In this document: positions 44,893 through 55,427 of the stretch, one piece after another | Numbering within the stretch: the stretch's first letter is position 1 | Layout of the letters: every line of letters starts with the position of its first letter | From: an uncultured Flavobacteriales bacterium | GTDB lineage: Bacteria; Bacteroidota; Bacteroidia; Flavobacteriales_G; Salibacteraceae | NCBI GenBank assembly: GCA_937121175.1 | Contig: CAKZKD010000028.1 | Location: forward strand, 1 to 64,000 | Reading direction: 5' to 3' | Length of the DNA stretch: 64,000 bases | Notes under the pieces: generated by a model | The model's database searches: none | What the model saw: only the letters and a program-made list of their open reading frames with translations | Told to the model about the DNA's origin: nothing | Program-made: the position numbers and the translations under genes

Positions 44893-44920
44893 AAAGCCAC
44901 TCGGAAACGGGTGGCTTTTT
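44893..44920 (+). terminator. intrinsic terminator of ahcY
   Basis: An 11-bp stem with one G-U pair (AAAGCCACTCG / CGGGTGGCTTT), loop GAAA and a short T-run. Its right end touches the stop of the convergent Rieske-like gene. The minus-strand T-run is weak, so it mostly serves ahcY. Confidence 0.85.
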
Positions 44921-45347
44921 AGTTATATATATGAAGTATTCCTTGTGTTTCTCTTGTTTGATATTGCAATAGTGGAATTGCTGAATTTCCAGAAGCCACA
45001 GTTCCGTCAGACAAGTAGTACTGAATACCATCGCATTCTTCAACTCCAAAAATATTACTGGAATCTGCCGTTACCACAGCACATTGTTCAGTGCTTTTGT
45101 GCGGAGAATGCCTTTCAAAAGCACGGTATGCATTAACATCTCGATAAATAAGAATCCCTCTAGATCCTCCTTCCACATTTATTGATCCACCAATTGCAGT
45201 TAAATTGAAGTTAGATGGTTGGTCAAGGTTTAAATAAATATTCACCGGTACTTGCGGAATATTCTCATATTGATTCGTATTATTATCGTCCTTCTTACAG
45301 GATAAAAACAAAACAAATACTGTGATTAAGAAAAAACCTTTTCTCAT
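44919..45347 (-). CDS. Rieske-fold lipoprotein lacking 2Fe-2S ligands
   Basis: 142 residues from the ATG at 45347 (an ATG three codons earlier is possible). The lipobox VLFLSC is followed by KKDDN, which fits the surface export signal (Lys-Asp-Asp). The C-terminal 80 residues follow the Rieske outline: GILIYRDVNAYRAFERHSPH, then QCAVV, then EECDGIQYYLSDGTVASGNSAIPLLQY. In a true Rieske site the first motif is CxH and the second CxxH. Here the first Cys is Ser and the second motif is shortened (CDG), so no cluster is expected. Such degenerate forms are frequent in Bacteroidota lipoproteins. Its 5' end overlaps the gene at 45322 head-to-head. Confidence 0.75.
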   Translation of the reverse strand: MRKGFFLITVFVLFLSCKKDDNNTNQYENIPQVPVNIYLNLDQPSNFNLTAIGGSINVEGGSRGILIYRDVNAYRAFERHSPHKSTEQCAVVTADSSNIFGVEECDGIQYYLSDGTVASGNSAIPLLQYQTRETQGILHIYN

Positions 45348-45678
45348 AGCCCGCAAAGCTACACTTGTTTCTCTGATTTTTACAGCACTTTTAATTTCAC
45401 CCTTTCAAGAATCCCATGCTCAAAGTAAGTTTGACTCAAAACGCAAGGTAAAAAAGAGAGGCAAAGCCGCAGAAAAACAGAAAAAAGAAGATTTAGAAGC
45501 TGAACTTAATATTTCAGCGGATTTACGTCAACAACACATATCCAATCAGAATAAGGATGTTCGAAAACGAATGAAAAAAAATAAAAAAAGAGCAAAACGA
45601 TATAATGACCATAAAAAAAGCTTTTTTCTGAAACGATGGTTCTCCTCTCTAAAAATTAAAATCAAGAACATTTTTTAA
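45322..45678 (+). CDS. small basic secreted protein, unknown
   Basis: 118 residues, GTG start (no inner start preserves the signal). A signal peptide (ATLVSLIFTALLISPFQESHAQ) is followed by a very basic chain: KFDSKRKVKKRGKAAEKQKKE, then a helix-prone centre, then KKNKKRAKRYNDHKKS and a tail KIKIKNIF. With so many Lys/Arg it may bind anionic lipids, LPS, or nucleic acids; that is inference. Its first 26 bases lie inside the 5' end of the opposite-strand Rieske-like gene, an unusual divergent overlap. No known family. Confidence 0.55.
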   Translation: MIKKKPFLIARKATLVSLIFTALLISPFQESHAQSKFDSKRKVKKRGKAAEKQKKEDLEAELNISADLRQQHISNQNKDVRKRMKKNKKRAKRYNDHKKSFFLKRWFSSLKIKIKNIF

Positions 45679-45798: not shown

Positions 45799-45830
45799 GG
45801 CGGTAAGCAAATATTTATATCTTTACCGCC
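45799..45830. promoter_or_regulatory. inverted repeat around the receptor promoter
   Basis: GGCGGTAA (45799-45806) and TTACCGCC (45823-45830) are perfect 8-bp arms with a 16-bp AT-rich spacer. Between and into the right arm lies TATCTTTA (45818-45825), seven of eight bases of TAnnTTTG. An operator over the -7 element of the TonB-dependent receptor operon is the simplest reading. The remainder of the 197-bp gap (45679-45875) holds nothing else I can support. Confidence 0.5.
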
Positions 45831-45875: not shown

Positions 45876-48800
45876 ATGCTTAAAAAATACTTTGCCCTTT
45901 TCATTTTAACTCTCGGGTTTTTAAATTACGGGTATTCACAAACAGGAACCGGAGGAATTAAAGGAAAGGTACTTGACTCAGAGACGGGCGAACCCTTGCC
46001 ATTTGTTAACGTTGTTGTTGAGCAATCTGGGAGAATTGTTACTGGTGGTTCAACTGACTTTGATGGTAAATTCTTTATAAAACCTTTACCAGCAGGAACG
46101 TTTGACTTAAAAGTCAAATTTCTTGGGTATGCACCCCTTCTTAAAAAAGGCGTTATTGTTAACGCTGATAAAATTACGTTCGCTGACATGAACATGAAAT
46201 CCAGTGCGATTGAAATGGAAACGTATGAAGTGGTAAGTTATAAAGTACCGTTAATTTCAAAAGACAACACTAGTAGTGGTAGCACGATTGGCGGTGAAGA
46301 CATGGATAAAATGGCAACAAGATCCGTTGCAGGTATCGCCCAGCAAGTGGGTGGTGTTGTTTCTTCCGATGATGGTAATGGAAGCCTGAATTTTAGAGGA
46401 GCAAGAAGTGATGCTAACTACTATTTTATTGACGGTATTAAAGTGAGGGCTGCTGCGAACAGCTTACCTCAATCTGCAATTGAACAAGTATCTGTGACTA
46501 CAGGTGGTATTCCTGCTCAATATGGTGATGTTACTGGTGGTGTTGTTAGTATTACTACCAAAGGAGCGGCTAGTACTTATGGTGGGTCAATGGAATACGT
46601 TACATCTGGTTACCGAATCAACGATAAAATTTATGGTTTAGACCCTTATGCATATAACCTTTTAGAATTTAGTACTTATGGTCCCATACTTTGGAAAAAA
46701 GATAGTGCAAACAAAAAAACAAGTCCAATTCTTGGATTCTTCTTATCGGGTAACTTTAACTATGTTGCAGACCCAAGGCCAAGTCATTTGGGATATTGGA
46801 AACTCAAGGACGATGTCCGAGATAACCTTATTGCTGACCCGCTCAGGTACAATCCAAGTGGTGACGGCACCGCGCCAAATGGTGAGTTTGTTAGGTTGAA
46901 TGATATTGAAAACGTTCGGACAAAACCAAATGCACAACAATATGGGTCAAGTATCCAAGGTAAAATTGACGTTAACACAAGTAAGAATACAAACCTTACG
47001 ATTGGCGGTAACTTCACATACGGAAACAGAAAGGGGTCAAGTAATAATGACCTATACAGAGATGGTCTAACTGACCAGGCCCTATACCCTTCAGCGTTAA
47101 TGAACTGGGCTAATAATCCCAGAAGAATCGATTACAACTCTAGGGGATTTGTTCGTTTTACCCAACGTTTTAATGATGCACAGAGTGAGGAAAGTTCCTC
47201 CCTTATTAAAAATGCTTTTTACACTGTTCAATTTGATTACTCCAATAGGTTAACTCGAATATTCAACGATGACCATAAAGATGATTTATGGAAATATGGA
47301 TATGTAGGAAAATTTGAACGTTTTGAATCAAAGACTTATAATCTTGAACAAGATTCAGTTTTCTTTCGTCAAGCTTGGATTCACCAAAACTGGGAAGATA
47401 CCCTGATTGGGTTTACCCCTAGCGGCGACAATGAGGCATTGGCCAATTATACTAGCCAGTACTACGAACTTTATGGATGGGAAGGTTATGACGCTGAAGG
47501 AAATCCTGTATTTGATCCAGAACAAGCGAGAGACCCTAATGACCCAACTAGAACCAACAAATTTTTATCGGATGTCACAACAATGAGAACAAACGGTGCA
47601 TTGTTCAATGGAGACCAGCCGCGTTCTGTAATTGGAATGTGGGATGGTCCTGCTACACAATACAACAGGAATCAAAGAACCATCGAAAATCAATATAGAC
47701 TTTCTGCAAGCGGTTCGGCTGATATTGGCGACCACAACATTCTTATTGGATTTGAATATGAACAAAGAGTTGATAGAGAATATGTTGTACGACCAATGGC
47801 AACTCCTGGAGGTACGAATGGACTTTGGGCCCTTGGAAGACTTTACACCAACTCTCACCTGGAACAAAGAGATTTATTTAATCCTGTTATAGAATATGTG
47901 GATGGGCTTCCTGGTGATGTAGCTTTTACATATCCAAGACTTAACTCCGCTCCGGGTGAATACACTTCTGAGGACGCACAATCATTTTTTGATTACAACT
48001 TAAGAAAAGAAAATTCCGATTTAGCTCCAGGCGGTGCAGACGGTATAGATCGAATTGATTTTGACAATATTGACCCTGACAAATTGAGTATCACTTATTT
48101 TAGTGCAGATGAATTACTGAACAATGGAAACAGTATCGTGTCAAACTATTACGGTTTCGATGTTTACGGAAATAAAATAAATAACAACCCAACAATTGAT
48201 GACTTTTTTCAAGCTGAAGACGAATTTGGAAATAAGACTAGACCGATTGGTGCTTTTAGACCTATCTATATTGCAGGGTACATTCAAGATAAGTTTGCAT
48301 TTGATGACCTTGTGTTTAATATCGGTCTCAGAGTTGACAGGTACGATGCAAATCAAAGCGTACTTTCTGACCCTTACGTGTTTTTCCCTACAATTAAAGC
48401 AGGTGAAGACGCAGCACTTGAATTAGCTGATGGGGCTCACCCAGAAAACATAGGAGAAGATTTCGTAGTTTATGTTGATGATTTGAATCAACCAACTACC
48501 ATCACTGGGTATCGAGATGGCAACAATTGGTATAATAAAGAGGGTGTGGAAATAGCTAATCCAGATGCATTGGCTACATCATCAGGAATTGCACCACTAC
48601 TTGTTGACAAGGAGCGTACACGGGCAGAACAAATTAGCTCTGATGGTTTTGAGGATTATAAACCACAGACGAATTTCATGCCTCGAATTGCCTTTTCTTT
48701 TCCAATATCAGACGAAGCACTATTCTTCGCCCACTATGACATCCTTACGAAAAGACCTACTACAGGAGAACGATTAGATCCAACAGATTATTTATTTGTT

Positions 48801-49733
48801 GAAACCACCAATAGATTCAATGTAAGAAACAACCCTAATTTGCAAGCTGAAAAAACAATTGACTACGAGGCTGGATTTCAACAAAAACTCACCAACACTA
48901 GTTCCATTAAAATTTCTACTTTCTATCGTGAATTTAGAGACCAAGTACAAGTTGTTAGGGTTAAACAAGCTTTTCCAGCGGAGTATTCAACTTTTGGTAA
49001 CGTTGATTTTGGAACTGTTAAGGGTTTAACATTTGCTTATGATATGAGAAGGACCGGAAATGTATCACTTCGTGGATCTTATACCATTCAATTTGCTGAA
49101 GGTACTGGATCAGATGCGACAACTGCCAATGCTTTAATTAATGCAGGATTCGACAACTTAAAAGTAACTTCACCTCTAAATTATGACCAACGACATACAA
49201 TTCAAGCGGTATTAGATTATAGATATTCTTCAGGAAAAGATTATAATGGCCCTATCATTGCGGGCAAGCAAGTACTTGCTAATACAGGTGCCAACTTGAC
49301 AATGTTAACCAACTCCGGACGCCCATTTAACGGTCAATCTGAATCTACAGGTCGAGCATTTATCACAGATGTAGGTAACGCTTTCTTGGACGGTTCTATC
49401 AACGGGAACAATTTACCGTGGAGTTTTAAAATTGACGCACGTGTAGATAAGGACTTCCAAATTAAAGTTGGTAAAGACAAAGAAAAAGCTTTAGACATGA
49501 CTGTTTATTTGCAAATTTTAAACGTACTAAACAATCAAAATATTTTGAGTGTTAATCGCTACACAGCTGACCCATTGGATGACGGTTACCTAGCAGATGC
49601 AAGATGGACTGGTGATATCGAATCACAAAATGACACTCAATCTTTTGAAGAATTATATAGAATTAAAAATGCCGTCGGATCAAATTTCAATCTTCCCCGA
49701 AGATTTAGATTAGGTGTAAGATTGGCATTTTAA
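45876..49733 (+). CDS. TonB-dependent receptor with carboxypeptidase-regulatory-like domain
   Basis: 1285 residues. Signal peptide (FALFILTLGFLNYGYSQ), then a carboxypeptidase-regulatory-like domain at about residues 25-105 (GGIKGKVLDSETGEPLPFVNVVV). The plug follows at about 115-230 (STIGGEDMDKMATRSVAGIAQQ, LNFRGARSDANYYFIDGI, PAQYGDVTGGVVSI). The large barrel takes up the rest and ends LPRRFRLGVRLAF, with the aromatic terminus of outer-membrane proteins. No SusD partner lies next to it; instead it is followed by a giant secreted protein and a PorV-like barrel, with gaps of 28 and 29 bp. The substrate is unknown. Promoter and inverted repeat lie at 45799-45830. Confidence 0.92.
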   Translation: MLKKYFALFILTLGFLNYGYSQTGTGGIKGKVLDSETGEPLPFVNVVVEQSGRIVTGGSTDFDGKFFIKPLPAGTFDLKVKFLGYAPLLKKGVIVNADKITFADMNMKSSAIEMETYEVVSYKVPLISKDNTSSGSTIGGEDMDKMATRSVAGIAQQVGGVVSSDDGNGSLNFRGARSDANYYFIDGIKVRAAANSLPQSAIEQVSVTTGGIPAQYGDVTGGVVSITTKGAASTYGGSMEYVTSGYRINDKIYGLDPYAYNLLEFSTYGPILWKKDSANKKTSPILGFFLSGNFNYVADPRPSHLGYWKLKDDVRDNLIADPLRYNPSGDGTAPNGEFVRLNDIENVRTKPNAQQYGSSIQGKIDVNTSKNTNLTIGGNFTYGNRKGSSNNDLYRDGLTDQALYPSALMNWANNPRRIDYNSRGFVRFTQRFNDAQSEESSSLIKNAFYTVQFDYSNRLTRIFNDDHKDDLWKYGYVGKFERFESKTYNLEQDSVFFRQAWIHQNWEDTLIGFTPSGDNEALANYTSQYYELYGWEGYDAEGNPVFDPEQARDPNDPTRTNKFLSDVTTMRTNGALFNGDQPRSVIGMWDGPATQYNRNQRTIENQYRLSASGSADIGDHNILIGFEYEQRVDREYVVRPMATPGGTNGLWALGRLYTNSHLEQRDLFNPVIEYVDGLPGDVAFTYPRLNSAPGEYTSEDAQSFFDYNLRKENSDLAPGGADGIDRIDFDNIDPDKLSITYFSADELLNNGNSIVSNYYGFDVYGNKINNNPTIDDFFQAEDEFGNKTRPIGAFRPIYIAGYIQDKFAFDDLVFNIGLRVDRYDANQSVLSDPYVFFPTIKAGEDAALELADGAHPENIGEDFVVYVDDLNQPTTITGYRDGNNWYNKEGVEIANPDALATSSGIAPLLVDKERTRAEQISSDGFEDYKPQTNFMPRIAFSFPISDEALFFAHYDILTKRPTTGERLDPTDYLFVETTNRFNVRNNPNLQAEKTIDYEAGFQQKLTNTSSIKISTFYREFRDQVQVVRVKQAFPAEYSTFGNVDFGTVKGLTFAYDMRRTGNVSLRGSYTIQFAEGTGSDATTANALINAGFDNLKVTSPLNYDQRHTIQAVLDYRYSSGKDYNGPIIAGKQVLANTGANLTMLTNSGRPFNGQSESTGRAFITDVGNAFLDGSINGNNLPWSFKIDARVDKDFQIKVGKDKEKALDMTVYLQILNVLNNQNILSVNRYTADPLDDGYLADARWTGDIESQNDTQSFEELYRIKNAVGSNFNLPRRFRLGVRLAF

Positions 49734-49761
49734 TAACAGCAAACAGTTTCATTAAGTAGAT

Positions 49762-52700
49762 ATGAAAAAAATAAACATACTAGTTGCGATACTTCTTTCA
49801 AGTTTCATATTGTCTGCACATAACGGCAATGAAGGCGGAAGTAGAGGTGGAAAAAAACCGAATGGAAGTTTGGCCGCAGGATGTTCTCCTGCTACTAATA
49901 GCGATGAGTTAAACATCAACAACACAAGAGCCTTAATACAAACCGGTGGTGATATGTGGTGGGATTTTTCTAACTCTCAATACGAAATTCCAAAAAACAG
50001 TGGACACACTGCTTTGTTTGCAGGTTCTTTATGGTTGGGCGGTAGAGATATTTCTGGTCAACTTAAAGTTGCAGCTCAGCGTTTTAGAGCGAGTGGTCAG
50101 GATTTTTGGACAGGTCCATTGAGTCTGGTAGATGCAGAAATAACACCAGCTACATGTGTTGCATACGACAAGCATTTTGTTACCACTCGTGCCGAAGTTA
50201 GTGAGTTTGTTGGTTGGTTTGAAGCTGGTATCGATGATGCTGCCAATGGAACTTCTAAACAAGCTGATCAATATCCTGGGTATTCTGTTCCAAAAAGCAT
50301 ATTAGAATATCCTGCTAAGGGTAGAGCATTTGCACCCTATAATGAAGCCGATGATTTAGCGCCTTATGTTGACAGAGATGGAGACGGGGATTACGATCCC
50401 TCTCAAGGAGATTACCCGGCTTATGACCTGAATAATTCAAGTGATTGTAAAGAACGTATTGTAAACCTTTTTGGAGATCAAAATCTTTGGTGGGTATTCA
50501 ATGATAAAGGAAATGTGCATACTGAAACAGGTGCTGCCTCCATTGGTATGGAAATAAGGGCTCAGGCTTTTGCATTTGCAACCAATGATGAAATTAATAA
50601 CATGACATTTTATAATTATGAATTAGTTAACAGAAGTACATTCACATTAACAGACACTTACTTTGGTCAATGGGTTGATGCTGACTTAGGTTGTAGTGAC
50701 GACGATTTTGTAGGTTGTGATGTTCAAAGAGGACTAGGGTACTGCTATAATGGAGATAATACGGATGAAGATTGCCGTGGTGTGACTGGGTACGGGAATC
50801 TTCCACCTGCAATTGGGGTTGATTTTTTCCAAGGACCTTTCCAGGATAATGATGGTGTTGACAATCCTTTAACTGCTAAAATCGAAGAAGCTAAGAAAAA
50901 TAACGGAATCCCTTACAAAGGAATTGGTATCGGGTATAGCGATGGTGTAATTGACAATGAGCGTTTTGGAATGCGTAAATTTTTATATCACAATAGAAGC
51001 TCTGGACCAACTGCTACCCAAGATCCACAAACAGGTGTTGAATACTACAACTATCTTCGAAGTGTTTGGAGAGATGGAAGTAGAATGTTTTACGGTGGTA
51101 TTGGTCACCAAGGAGACACAAAAGCTGATCAAACTGTAGAGGCTGATTATATGTTCCCAAATGATACGGACCCATTTGGATGGGGAACTGATGGAAATCC
51201 TCAAGACCCTTGGACCGAAGTTACAGCAGGTAACGCACCTGGTGATCGTAGATTTATGCAATCTGCAGGACCATTTACCTTAGAACCTGGAGCAGTAAAT
51301 AATATTACTGTTGGAGTTGTGTGGGCTAGGGCCACAAACGGAAACAACTTGAGTTCAATCAACACATTGAAAAAAGCAGATGATAAAACCCAAGCTCTAT
51401 TTGACAACTGTTTCCGTATTTTAAGTGGGCCTGATGCTCCAACACTAACCATTCGTGAGTTAGAAAATGAATTAATTATTTATTTGGATAACCCTCTTTT
51501 ATCTAACAACTTCAATCAAGCTTACAAGGAATCTGACCCCACAATTACTGGCTTTCCAGATACTATTAACGGCAGACCAATTACAGATGGTGAAATTGAA
51601 GATTTTAAAACCTATACTTTTCAAGGTTATATGATTTATCAATTGAAGAACAACGCAGTTTCTACAGGTGATTTAGAGGATCCTTCAAAGGCAAGACTAA
51701 TTGCTCAAGTTGACGTAAGGGATACTGTTTCTACAATTATTAATAATCCATTTGATAATGATATTGAAGCTTATGTTCCTACTATTAAAGTTGAAGGCTC
51801 GAATCAAGGCATTGAAACATCTTTCCAAATAAAACAGGATGCTTTTGCTGACGGTGTTACGGAATTGGTAAACAATCGAGCATATTACTACTTGGCAATT
51901 GCTTATGGGTTCAACCCAAATTCTCAAAACCGAAAATTTATTGGTAGTAGAAAGTCACCTACCGGCGCAATTTTAGCTGTAAAAGGAATTCCACACAAAG
52001 TTGATAACCAAAATGGTGGAACCGTTTTAAATTCCAAATATGGTGATGGAGTTGAAATTACGCGCGTGGAAGGTGTTGGAAATGGCGGTAACGATGTTCG
52101 AATCAAGCAAGAGAGTATTGATTCTATCTTAAAACCTAATGTTGGGTATGTCAAAAATTTAAAATATGAAAAAGGCGCAGGCCCTATTACAGTTAAAGTT
52201 GTTGATCCTTTAGCCATTAAAGGTGATGATTACCGCGTATGGTTACAGGATACCAATTCTAAAACCAGAGGCGACTTAACAGATGCTTACTGGATGATTA
52301 CTAGTTCGAGTTTAGATGACACAATTTTTTCTTCCACAGATATTGAAATAGGATCAGAGAAAGTTGTTTCTGAACTTGGAATTTCGATTACTATTGGGCA
52401 AGTCGGAAATTCCGGAACGGCTGAAGAACGTGAGTTAAACAATGGTTTCGTTTCTTCTTCAATTACTTTCGCTGACAATAGTAATCAGTGGCTCACAGGT
52501 GTATCGGATATTGATGGTCTAACGGAAACGAATTGGATTTTGAGTGGAACTAATGCACAAGAAGATGTTGCTTTTTCTCCTTTAAAAGAAGATGCCTTTA
52601 ATGATTGGAACTATTACATGGCTGATAATGGTGGTGGTGGTGTAGCCAAAGAAGGAGAGGGTCTGGATGACTTGCAAAAATTCGAGCAAATTGAAGCTGG

Positions 52701-54261
52701 AATTATTGCTCCTTTTCGATTGACCGCTTGGAAATCACCTTCGGGTCCTGTTCCAGGGTACTTAAAGGCTGGAGTAACCCAATCTATTTCTCCTCTTATC
52801 CAATTTAACCATTTATGGTTATATGATGAAGATGCTATTGATAGTGCAGACGTTATGCATATTCCATTAGATTCCGTTAATCAATTAAATTATTTACACG
52901 GTGTTAATATTGTTATCACTGATAATAAAGAACTTTGGAGTCGCTGTCCAGTGCTGGAGATGCGTGATAGTCTTGAAGAAACGGAAGGAAATGCTATTAG
53001 AGGTCAACTAAGAGATGCGCCTTCGGTTGATAAAGCTGGACTGCCAGCTGATACAAATGCAGCACCTTCCGAGGACCCAAATTCGCCTAATTACATAGCT
53101 TCGAAAGGTATGGGATGGTTCCCTGGATATGCCATTGACGTTGAAACGGGTGAGCGCTTAAATATGGCCTTTGGTGAAGATTCATACTTAATTGAAGAGA
53201 ATGGAAGAAATATGCTTTGGGATCCTACAAGTACAGAAAGTGAAGGTCCATTAAGACAGTTTAGAGGCGGTGGAAAGCATTTAATCTATGTGTTCAGAAA
53301 CAATGCTGTTGAAGATGAAGTAATCACTCCTGATGATTTCACTACTCAAAATCCTTTGAACGTATTGAATAATTTAGATTACAATGATCCTGAAAACAGA
53401 ATGCCAAGATATGATGCAGGAAAATGGATGGAAGAAAAATTACGAGATGTTCGTGGCTATCTTTCAAACAGAGACCCAATCCAAGTTGAATTGCATAATG
53501 ATGCTGCTAATGTTTTCAGAGCAGGAATGTGGGTAATGAATCCTCTTGTAGCCGAAGACAAAGAATATACTTTAGAGAATACTGTTACAATACGTTTAAG
53601 AGTGAATCAGCAGTATGAAGCTTTTGGTATTGGTACGCCCGTAGCAGGTAACAAAGTTGAGATAGGAAAAGACTATTATGTTAACGCCGGTCCCATTAGA
53701 GTTATCTATGAGCCAACAGCAAACGACACAGTACCAGATACAACTATGTACTACCGAGGTATGACTTTTAGCCCAAGAACTCAAGAAGATTTAGATTTCA
53801 CTCTTGAGTACAAGACTGGCGACCTTGGAACTGACGTAGTTGGTTTGTTTACCGAACAAAGTAATGGTGGTATGCCACTCTATGAATTCTCGACCAAAGG
53901 GATGGAGCCTACATTTAATAATGCTGATGTGGCAAAAGATGCTCTTGAGAACATTAAAGCGGTGCCGAATCCTTATTACGCCTACAGTAAGTATGAAACA
54001 GGTAAATTGGACAACAGAATGATAATAACCAATTTGCCTAAAACTGTTACTGTTAGAATATACACAATCAACGGTACGTTGGTAAGAACACTTGAAAAAG
54101 ATGATGATACCATTACATTCTTAGAATGGGATTTAAAGAATCAATCCAGAGTGCCAATTGCTTCTGGTATGTACATTATCCACGTAGATGCTCCAGATAT
54201 TGGAGAAACTATCCTAAAATGGATGGCGGTCATGAGACCTATCGATTTGGATAACTTTTAA
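49762..54261 (+). CDS. very large secreted protein with FlgD-/T9SS-type C-terminal domain
   Basis: 1499 residues, no recognised catalytic domain. Signal peptide (INILVAILLSSFILSA), then a Gly-rich stretch. Near residue 204 a calcium-site-like DRDGDGDYDP motif appears, followed by aromatic, Asp-rich beta segments and cysteines (about 300-340). The C-terminal 90 residues (VPNPYYAYSKY, VTVRIYTINGTLVRTL, WDLKNQSRVPIASGMYIIHV) match a FlgD-like/T9SS type A-like domain, so export by the type IX system is likely, though the usual final basic residues are absent (ends IDLDNF). It is co-transcribed with the receptor and the PorV-like gene. Such a set suggests a surface complex. Confidence 0.75.
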   Translation: MKKINILVAILLSSFILSAHNGNEGGSRGGKKPNGSLAAGCSPATNSDELNINNTRALIQTGGDMWWDFSNSQYEIPKNSGHTALFAGSLWLGGRDISGQLKVAAQRFRASGQDFWTGPLSLVDAEITPATCVAYDKHFVTTRAEVSEFVGWFEAGIDDAANGTSKQADQYPGYSVPKSILEYPAKGRAFAPYNEADDLAPYVDRDGDGDYDPSQGDYPAYDLNNSSDCKERIVNLFGDQNLWWVFNDKGNVHTETGAASIGMEIRAQAFAFATNDEINNMTFYNYELVNRSTFTLTDTYFGQWVDADLGCSDDDFVGCDVQRGLGYCYNGDNTDEDCRGVTGYGNLPPAIGVDFFQGPFQDNDGVDNPLTAKIEEAKKNNGIPYKGIGIGYSDGVIDNERFGMRKFLYHNRSSGPTATQDPQTGVEYYNYLRSVWRDGSRMFYGGIGHQGDTKADQTVEADYMFPNDTDPFGWGTDGNPQDPWTEVTAGNAPGDRRFMQSAGPFTLEPGAVNNITVGVVWARATNGNNLSSINTLKKADDKTQALFDNCFRILSGPDAPTLTIRELENELIIYLDNPLLSNNFNQAYKESDPTITGFPDTINGRPITDGEIEDFKTYTFQGYMIYQLKNNAVSTGDLEDPSKARLIAQVDVRDTVSTIINNPFDNDIEAYVPTIKVEGSNQGIETSFQIKQDAFADGVTELVNNRAYYYLAIAYGFNPNSQNRKFIGSRKSPTGAILAVKGIPHKVDNQNGGTVLNSKYGDGVEITRVEGVGNGGNDVRIKQESIDSILKPNVGYVKNLKYEKGAGPITVKVVDPLAIKGDDYRVWLQDTNSKTRGDLTDAYWMITSSSLDDTIFSSTDIEIGSEKVVSELGISITIGQVGNSGTAEERELNNGFVSSSITFADNSNQWLTGVSDIDGLTETNWILSGTNAQEDVAFSPLKEDAFNDWNYYMADNGGGGVAKEGEGLDDLQKFEQIEAGIIAPFRLTAWKSPSGPVPGYLKAGVTQSISPLIQFNHLWLYDEDAIDSADVMHIPLDSVNQLNYLHGVNIVITDNKELWSRCPVLEMRDSLEETEGNAIRGQLRDAPSVDKAGLPADTNAAPSEDPNSPNYIASKGMGWFPGYAIDVETGERLNMAFGEDSYLIEENGRNMLWDPTSTESEGPLRQFRGGGKHLIYVFRNNAVEDEVITPDDFTTQNPLNVLNNLDYNDPENRMPRYDAGKWMEEKLRDVRGYLSNRDPIQVELHNDAANVFRAGMWVMNPLVAEDKEYTLENTVTIRLRVNQQYEAFGIGTPVAGNKVEIGKDYYVNAGPIRVIYEPTANDTVPDTTMYYRGMTFSPRTQEDLDFTLEYKTGDLGTDVVGLFTEQSNGGMPLYEFSTKGMEPTFNNADVAKDALENIKAVPNPYYAYSKYETGKLDNRMIITNLPKTVTVRIYTINGTLVRTLEKDDDTITFLEWDLKNQSRVPIASGMYIIHVDAPDIGETILKWMAVMRPIDLDNF

Positions 54262-54290
54262 AATTATTGTTTAGGGAGATTAATCACGAT

Positions 54291-55370
54291 ATGATGAGAT
54301 ATAGACATAATAAAACATTTTTCTTGCTTTCGATTTTTGGACTGTTGATTACCAGTTCCATATACGCAGGTAATAAAGACCGAATTGGTCAGAATGGTGC
54401 CAATGAACTTTCTTTAAATCCTTGGACTAGAAGTGCTGGCTTTGCAGGTGCAAATTCGACCTCAGTTATTGGTTTGGAATCATTAGCTTCCAATATTTCT
54501 GGGTTGGCATTTACACCAAAAACTGAAATTCAATATGCTTTTACTCGTTTTATGGGCGGTGCATCTAATATCAACTCATTTGGTTTGGCTCAAAGAGTTG
54601 GCGAAGGAAATGTTATAGGCTTCTCCATTATGAATATGGCTTTCGGAGAAATAGATGTAACGACAGAGGATAACCCAGAAGGTGGTATTGGTGTTTTTTC
54701 ACCTCAATTTCTAAATCTAAATTTGGCTTATGCTAAAGCATTCTCCAATAGTATTTATGCTGGTATTGCTGTTAAGGTAATTTCTGAAGCTATTACGGAT
54801 GTTAAAACTCAAGGTGTTGCATTTGATATTGGTATTAGATATGTTACTGGAAAAGATGACAATTTAAAATTTGGAATTGCATTAAGAAACATTGGTCCTA
54901 AACTAAAATTTGAAGGAAATGGTCTTTCTGTAAAAACTGAATTCGAGGACAAAGAATTTACCTTTAACCAAAGAAGTGAAGCATTTGAAATGCCTGCAGA
55001 ATTGAACTTAGGTGCTTCGTATGATGTATATGTTGGTACACAAAATGATACTACTGGAAAAAGTGGTAAAACTGATCATAGAATAACTCCCGCTGGAACA
55101 TTTGTATCAAAATCTTTTGGAAAAGACGAATTGAGGGTTGGTGCAGAATATGCCTGGAGAGAAATGGTAATGGCCAGAGTTGGTTTGTTATACGAACAAG
55201 GCATTTTCTCAACAGATGAAAGAACAACAATTTATACTGGACCTTCGGCCGGGTTAACGTTTGCTTTGCCAATCAATGAAAACGGCTCAAGTATTTCAAT
55301 TGATTATTCATACGTTTTCACGAACCCTTATGGTGGCAACCACCTATTTGGTTTCCGATTGAATTTATAA
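54291..55370 (+). CDS. PorV/PorQ-family outer-membrane protein
   Basis: 359 residues from ATG 54291; a TTG at 54267 is in frame but would spoil the signal peptide (MMRYRHNKTFFLLSIFGLLITSSIYA). The barrel motif LNPWTRSAGFAGANSTSVIGLESLASNISGL (Gly-rich start) and the C-terminal FTNPYGGNHLFGFRLNL are typical of PorV/PorQ/UPF0164 proteins. PorV shuttles T9SS substrates to the attachment complex. This copy directly follows a T9SS-type substrate and may be dedicated to it. Terminator at 55396-55427. Confidence 0.85.
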   Translation: MMRYRHNKTFFLLSIFGLLITSSIYAGNKDRIGQNGANELSLNPWTRSAGFAGANSTSVIGLESLASNISGLAFTPKTEIQYAFTRFMGGASNINSFGLAQRVGEGNVIGFSIMNMAFGEIDVTTEDNPEGGIGVFSPQFLNLNLAYAKAFSNSIYAGIAVKVISEAITDVKTQGVAFDIGIRYVTGKDDNLKFGIALRNIGPKLKFEGNGLSVKTEFEDKEFTFNQRSEAFEMPAELNLGASYDVYVGTQNDTTGKSGKTDHRITPAGTFVSKSFGKDELRVGAEYAWREMVMARVGLLYEQGIFSTDERTTIYTGPSAGLTFALPINENGSSISIDYSYVFTNPYGGNHLFGFRLNL

Positions 55371-55395: not shown

Positions 55396-55427
55396 AATGG
55401 AATCCCTTAACCGGGATTCCATTTTTT
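55396..55427 (+). terminator. intrinsic terminator of the receptor/PorV operon
   Basis: An 11-bp perfect stem (AATGGAATCCC / GGGATTCCATT) with loop TTAACC and a run of six T. It lies 26 bp after the PorV-like stop and closes the 9.5-kb operon. Confidence 0.9.

Follow-up and report, generated by a model that had tools for sequence, protein, structure and literature searches.

In Porphyromonas gingivalis, the secreted proteins PorU and PorZ are anchored at the cell surface by the barrels PorV and PorQ, respectively (PMC5562754). The Ig-like C-terminal domains (CTDs) of these two proteins are not cleaved and measure 96 residues in PorZ and 108 in PorU, against 67-88 in cleaved CTDs (PMC11285876), and PorZ, with its non-cleaved CTD held by PorQ, binds a surface glycan through a carbohydrate-binding part (PMC8545088). 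In Flavobacterium johnsoniae, the gene of a substrate with a type B CTD is followed by that of its own PorP/SprF shuttle, and orphan substrates share one shuttle (PMC12618676). The importers SusCD and RagAB join a TonB-dependent receptor to a surface lipoprotein, and the FadL-family BamG and the surface lipoprotein BamH form a pair that is conserved throughout the phylum Bacteroidota (PMC12611786).

Here I describe three adjoining genes in a window (the whole stretch of DNA analysed, 64,000 nucleotides) from a Flavobacteriales assembly whose nearest named relatives are 'UBA6770' and metagenome bins of Crocinitomicaceae. They encode a TonB-dependent receptor (TBDR), a large protein with the features of a type IX secretion system (T9SS) substrate (GIANT) and a barrel (PORV). 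Like the two pairs of P. gingivalis, the trio combines a predicted secreted protein that carries an Ig-like CTD with a barrel of the PorV/PorQ family, but GIANT has neither a propeller nor a sortase domain, PORV belongs to a clade of its own, and the operon includes a receptor gene. The type B systems likewise have a substrate gene followed by its own barrel gene and a barrel shared by orphans, whereas in the trio the CTD is PorZ/PorU/type A-like, the barrel is of the PorV/PorQ family and the unit extends to a receptor gene. With SusCD and RagAB the trio shares a TonB-dependent receptor and a surface partner that presumably binds the ligand, but there is no SusD, the receptor does not match the SusC model, and the partner is of the T9SS type where those importers use a lipoprotein. 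Neither the kinds of parts nor the principle of pairing a secreted protein with its own barrel is new; the three-part unit is unreported in the literature searched, in which subscription journals are thinly covered and no paper was found to describe a conserved unit that joins a T9SS-type giant and a TonB-dependent receptor to an anchor of the PorV family. I consider it an evenly balanced proposition that the trio is a conserved, SusD-free surface capture-and-import module, in which the T9SS would export GIANT, the CTD would keep it docked on PORV, and GIANT would feed TBDR.

A three-gene order kept across the phylum

A first-pass annotation had described three open reading frames separated by 28-29 bp, closed by a single terminator and lacking a SusD, and on each of these points it was right (Table 1). 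The gaps measure 28 nt between TBDR and GIANT (49734-49761) and 29 nt between GIANT and the ATG of PORV (54262-54290), for which an alternative TTG start at 54267 would give 367 residues; a perfect 11-bp stem followed by Ts closes the trio; and none of the ten neighbouring genes examined (41.5-60.0 kb of the window) is SusD-like. Both flanks are of a housekeeping kind (thiamine-phosphate synthase-like, PcrB, phosphopantetheinyl transferase, SAH hydrolase, greA, HIT, ruvC and glycosyltransferase), with greA next after the terminator, and, in contrast to typical nutrient loci, no CAZymes, permeases or sensors lie alongside the module. Two small genes without known family are found 5' of it, one lipoprotein-like (44919-45356, minus strand) and one basic and secreted-looking (45322-45678, plus strand), and both keep this place in the related genomes L156 and L174.

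Table 1. Features of the locus, with positions in the window
Feature	Position	Strand	Basis
Imperfect inverted repeat, 15-nt arms, 80%	45799..45830	.	left arm not conserved
TATCTTTA, promoter-like element ~50 nt 5' of the TBDR start, within the right arm of the repeat	45818..45825	+	kept in eight related upstream regions
TBDR gene, TonB-dependent receptor, 1285 aa	45876..49733	+	ORF and Pfam
TBDR layout: CarboxypepD_reg domain (residues 28-116), plug (129-223), C-terminal Phe, signal peptide			signal peptide by eye
GIANT gene, 1499-aa secreted protein	49762..54261	+	ORF; no Pfam family above cut-off
Predicted super-beta-sandwich domain, GH15/65/94/116 type, GIANT residues ~41-552	49882..51417	+	AlphaFold model, structural alignment
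DRDGDGDYDPSQGD loop, candidate Ca2+ site, GIANT residues 204-217	50371..50412	+	motif D.DGDG.Y.P..GD.P conserved across the family
FnIII-like domain, GIANT residues approx. 557-718 (boundaries approximate)	51430..51915	+	Foldseek matches of the N-half model include fn3 structures
GIANT CTD, Ig-like T9SS C-terminal domain, residues 1395-1499 (105 aa)	53944..54258	+	nearest to non-cleaved PorZ/PorU CTDs
PORV gene, PorV/PorQ-family outer-membrane barrel, 359 aa, ATG at 54291	54291..55370	+	NF033709, 124 bits
Intrinsic terminator, perfect 11-bp stem then T-rich tail	55396..55423	+	similar stem-T structures 3' of PORV in related loci

The shared upstream inverted repeat that had also been proposed did not stand up to comparison. 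In eight related loci its right arm persists and its left arm does not, so that it is probably a promoter element instead of a paired structure, and I reject it as a shared regulatory structure; a functional pairing of its arms seems unlikely from the alignment. The element TATCTTTA resembles the -7 box of Bacteroidota promoters, TAnnTTTG.

In a sample of 395 genomes drawn across the phylum (171 genera), relatives of GIANT occur in 208 genomes and 122 genera, and many of the weaker matches among these span single domains only. Of 158 stretches that contain GIANT, 100 have TBDR upstream and PORV downstream of it, at median distances of 25 and 31 nt; this count is a lower bound, as several misses are due to contig ends or to crude calling of open reading frames in GC-rich genomes (e.g. 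L099 and L108). By genome, the complete order is found in 56/71 from the phylum sample, and it extends to 23 families beyond the window's own and to more than one class. Conservation of the order, on which the first-pass annotation had let its proposal depend, is therefore observed phylum-wide, and excludes chance adjacency. While greA usually lies 3' of the module in the window's class, other classes have SerA-like and GTPase genes upstream and GWxTD or cytochrome/TPR genes downstream, with the triplet unchanged; as the surroundings vary by class and the triplet stays, it is the triplet that is conserved, not its neighbourhood. The module is mostly single copy and stably placed. In several distant families of other classes (e.g. 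L073 11773-13134, L088, L089), genes for GWxTD-domain proteins, lipid A acyltransferase and heptosyltransferase are located 3' of it.

The distribution of GIANT follows that of the T9SS: sprA is present in 208/208 GIANT-positive genomes, while 95 of the 303 sprA-positive genomes are without GIANT (Fisher p 2e-37, uncorrected for relatedness). The window's genome itself carries sprA, PorU adjoining PorV, PorQ and PorV2. With a Sec-type signal peptide (by eye), an Ig-like CTD and sprA in its own genome, GIANT is predicted to be secreted by this route.

Fold and C-terminal domain of GIANT

By eye, GIANT lacks a lipobox. No Pfam family reaches the cut-off in the window protein or in any of 52 N-terminal halves of its relatives, which rules out a known Pfam domain protein, and a sequence search of solved structures gave nothing convincing (best E 0.54). 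The AlphaFold model of residues 28-775 (mean pLDDT 87.6), on the other hand, contains a recognisable fold. Its best VIA-align match is dextran dextrinase (9ju0; Z 19.5, 255 residues, 3.1 Å), and many phosphorylases match at Z 15-18, although identity over the super-beta-sandwich is only about 10%. The alignments cover the sandwich and nearby helices only, and the mainly beta models of GIANT show no (alpha/alpha)6 barrel. The initial statement that GIANT has no known catalytic domain can be made more specific: a catalytic barrel is not seen, which makes binding more likely than hydrolysis, but the predicted fold of the N-half can be recognised as the super-beta-sandwich of GH65/GH94/GH116-type enzymes. 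Its presence does not prove sugar binding; a ligand of GIANT would probably be carbohydrate-like.

The DRDGDGDYDP motif, noticed at first as a calcium-like site, is real and family-wide (D204 86%, G209 86%, Y211 87%, D217 87%). Five further Asp residues (D306, D314, D315, D320 and D335, numbered in the full protein) are invariant or near-invariant, and this set leaves a metal site or another activity possible. The window's genome also encodes an 834-aa protein (L046, G000:C2, 7438-9942) in which a propeller-like N-terminal part and a type A CTD are combined with a domain of the GIANT type, 42% identical to residues 172-354, so that this domain occurs in further T9SS cargo as well.

The C-terminal half of GIANT is modelled fairly (pLDDT 77.9), and the top T9SS structures matching the CTD are PorZ (5m11, Z 11.3) and PorU (6za2, Z 9.2). 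Among 36 members of the family, the end of the PorZ model is matched by all 36, the PorU model by 20 and the type A model TIGR04183 by 30 (E <= 0.01); the window protein scores 19.0-19.9 bits with TIGR04183, below the cut-off of 23 bits, and does not match the type B model TIGR04131. The CTD is also within the published length range of non-cleaved CTDs and above that of cleaved ones. Similarity and length agree that it is likely to be of the non-cleaved, resident PorZ/PorU type. GIANT is not PorZ itself, as the CTD alone matches (34-36 bits versus 260) and the N-half is predicted to form a super-beta-sandwich, not two beta-propellers.

Barrel, receptor and orphan copies

PORV belongs to the PorV/PorQ family (NF033709, 124 bits against a cut-off of 90) and stays below the equivalog cut-offs of PorV (52/250 bits), PorQ (64/220) and PorV2 (45/325). 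Five members of this family exceed the cut-off in the window's genome, and up to 16 in another genome searched. In a quick tree, with several long branches, of 29 module PORVs and 33 paralogues from eight genomes of several families, the module PORVs group together with an SH-aLRT of 100, and none of the 33 paralogues, among them the PorV of each genome, falls inside this clade. The best match to a profile of the module PORVs scores 405-451 bits in every one of six GIANT genomes and does not exceed 103 bits in 32 that lack GIANT; where only weak GIANT matches occur, the values are mostly intermediate (155-220 bits). PORV is not the general PorV, which the window's genome encodes separately, adjoining PorU. 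The separate clade, together with the presence of a module PORV in every GIANT-bearing genome checked, makes export through the general PorV less likely. These results support the dedicated three-part module with its own PorV-type barrel as it was first suggested. Its barrel had then been called a shuttle, and the family assignment stands; the PorZ/PorU-like CTD, however, points to a resident anchor rather than to a shuttle that releases its substrate.

Two other identities for the GIANT/PORV pair were discarded. It is not a type B CTD/SprF pair, as TIGR04131 has no match and PORV scores 18 bits with the PorP family (cut-off 90.55). Neither does it correspond, compared by description, to the BAM accessory pair BamG/BamH, as GIANT is absent from many genomes and shows no lipobox.

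TBDR matches CarbopepD_reg_2 (1.5e-16) and the plug domain PF07715 (8.2e-11); its classification as a TonB-dependent receptor is based on the matched plug and on a barrel predicted from its length, partial matches to NCBIfam receptors and the C-terminal Phe. The SusC model TIGR04056 gives no match, and with no SusD in the flanking genes the trio cannot be classed as a SusCD importer. Elsewhere in the genome (L045, G000:C5, 7474-18391), a second receptor of 954 aa, a weak match to the SusC type, has before it several genes whose products carry T9SS CTDs, one of them with a weak ExeM/NucH nuclease match, and directly after it another gene of the PorV/PorQ family, which groups in the tree with genes of two distant genomes; pairs of a receptor and a PorV-type barrel may be more general than the trio.

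A second GIANT in the window's genome (L044, G000:C39:12278-16774), 87% identical to the first, has no adjoining TBDR or PORV, and such orphans occur in many Flavobacteriales. Culturable species are among the carriers of GIANT, for example Salibacter halophilus (L173) and Crocinitomix catalasitica (L198), which has an orphan in addition to a module. They do not make GIANT an independent, portable gene: all 13 orphan-bearing genomes checked also encode a module PORV (41-57% identity) and a TBDR (46-54%), and in 11 of these both lie on one contig, 4.2-4.7 kb apart, a spacing that would fit a GIANT. In these 13 genomes one full-length relative of TBDR stands out, at the identity just given, and the remaining receptors align mostly over the N-terminal ~250 residues only. 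In one orphan-bearing metagenome bin (G463:C178:2975-6819), the match to the module TBDR is split, with three stop codons inside its second part, which is either a decayed gene or an assembly error. As the orphans show, a copy of GIANT can do without strict linkage to the other two genes, and in this they are similar to the orphan type B substrates of F. johnsoniae that share one shuttle (PMC12618676). A gene of ~250 aa is often located directly 5' of them (L044, L158, L168, L077); in the window's genome it looks response regulator-like and adjoins a 722-aa sensor-like protein, which suggests that the alternative copy is separately regulated.

Possible role of the trio

As a capture-and-import module, the trio could function as follows. 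Sec would carry GIANT across the inner membrane and the T9SS translocon would carry it across the outer one, after which its PorZ/PorU-like CTD would stay uncut and dock on the adjoining PORV, as PorZ does on PorQ and PorU on PorV. Placed beside TBDR, the super-beta-sandwich and FnIII domains would then act like a SusD lid, binding a ligand, probably carbohydrate-like, and passing it to the TonB-driven receptor for import, and orphan GIANTs would serve as alternative lids on the same PORV and TBDR. The capture by GIANT is a step that I infer. Tree-distance correlations are highest between the GIANT N-half and TBDR (0.93), with TBDR and PORV about equally high (0.91), and that between CTD and PORV is still positive (0.33) after removing the other two, values that are inflated by common descent and cannot separate interaction from it.

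Alternatively, the module could belong to the upkeep of the envelope, with GIANT, in the manner of PorZ, binding glycans or LPS of the cell itself at the surface to attach or order material there, PORV as its anchor and the receptor importing or recycling material. PorZ, with its carbohydrate-binding part and a CTD held by PorQ (PMC8545088, PMC5562754), is a precedent, and the mostly single, stably placed module without degradative genes, near lipid A acyltransferase and heptosyltransferase genes in some distant families, would agree with such a role. However, a TonB-dependent receptor speaks for import, the LPS-gene neighbourhood is limited to those families, and many T9SS-positive lineages (95/303) do without the module; I regard this explanation as unlikely, although it deserves serious attention.

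It is rather improbable that GIANT is ordinary T9SS cargo, an adhesin or enzyme shuttled by the general PorV and cleaved by PorU, with PORV and TBDR co-transcribed and acting elsewhere. The recognisably type A fold of the CTD, with TIGR04183 matched by 30/36 members, and the near-invariant Asp residues as a possible catalytic or metal site could be read that way, but not the deep conservation of the order, the exclusive co-occurrence with a separate PORV clade, or the length and similarity of the CTD. An importing function of the receptor could also be questioned altogether, as Bacteroidota do build machines from unexpected parts, such as the FadL-family BamG and surface proteins in the BAM complex (PMC12611786), and TBDR might assist GIANT, or a different client, in crossing the outer membrane or inserting into it, as part of an export or assembly complex. 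As the T9SS already has SprA for export, the plug and CarboxypepD_reg domains of TBDR are ordinary, and orphan GIANTs exist without a receptor of their own, I consider this very improbable.

If the capture-and-import reading is extended to the phylum, the trio could represent a third architecture for TonB-driven surface uptake, in which the SusD lipoprotein is replaced as the lid by a giant that the T9SS exports and whose own export signal fixes it permanently to a dedicated barrel of the PorV family, and in which orphan lids are interchangeable on one anchor and one receptor. I offer this tentatively, as a possibility that lies somewhat on the doubtful side. In any case, GIANT and its relatives make up a large, uncharacterised family for which Pfam has no entry, and the trio provides a testable case of a secretion signal that may serve as a permanent dock. 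If the proposal is true, one conserved unit would connect type IX secretion with TonB-dependent uptake, both hallmarks of the Bacteroidota, and the PorV/PorQ family would gain a general role as dedicated surface anchors.
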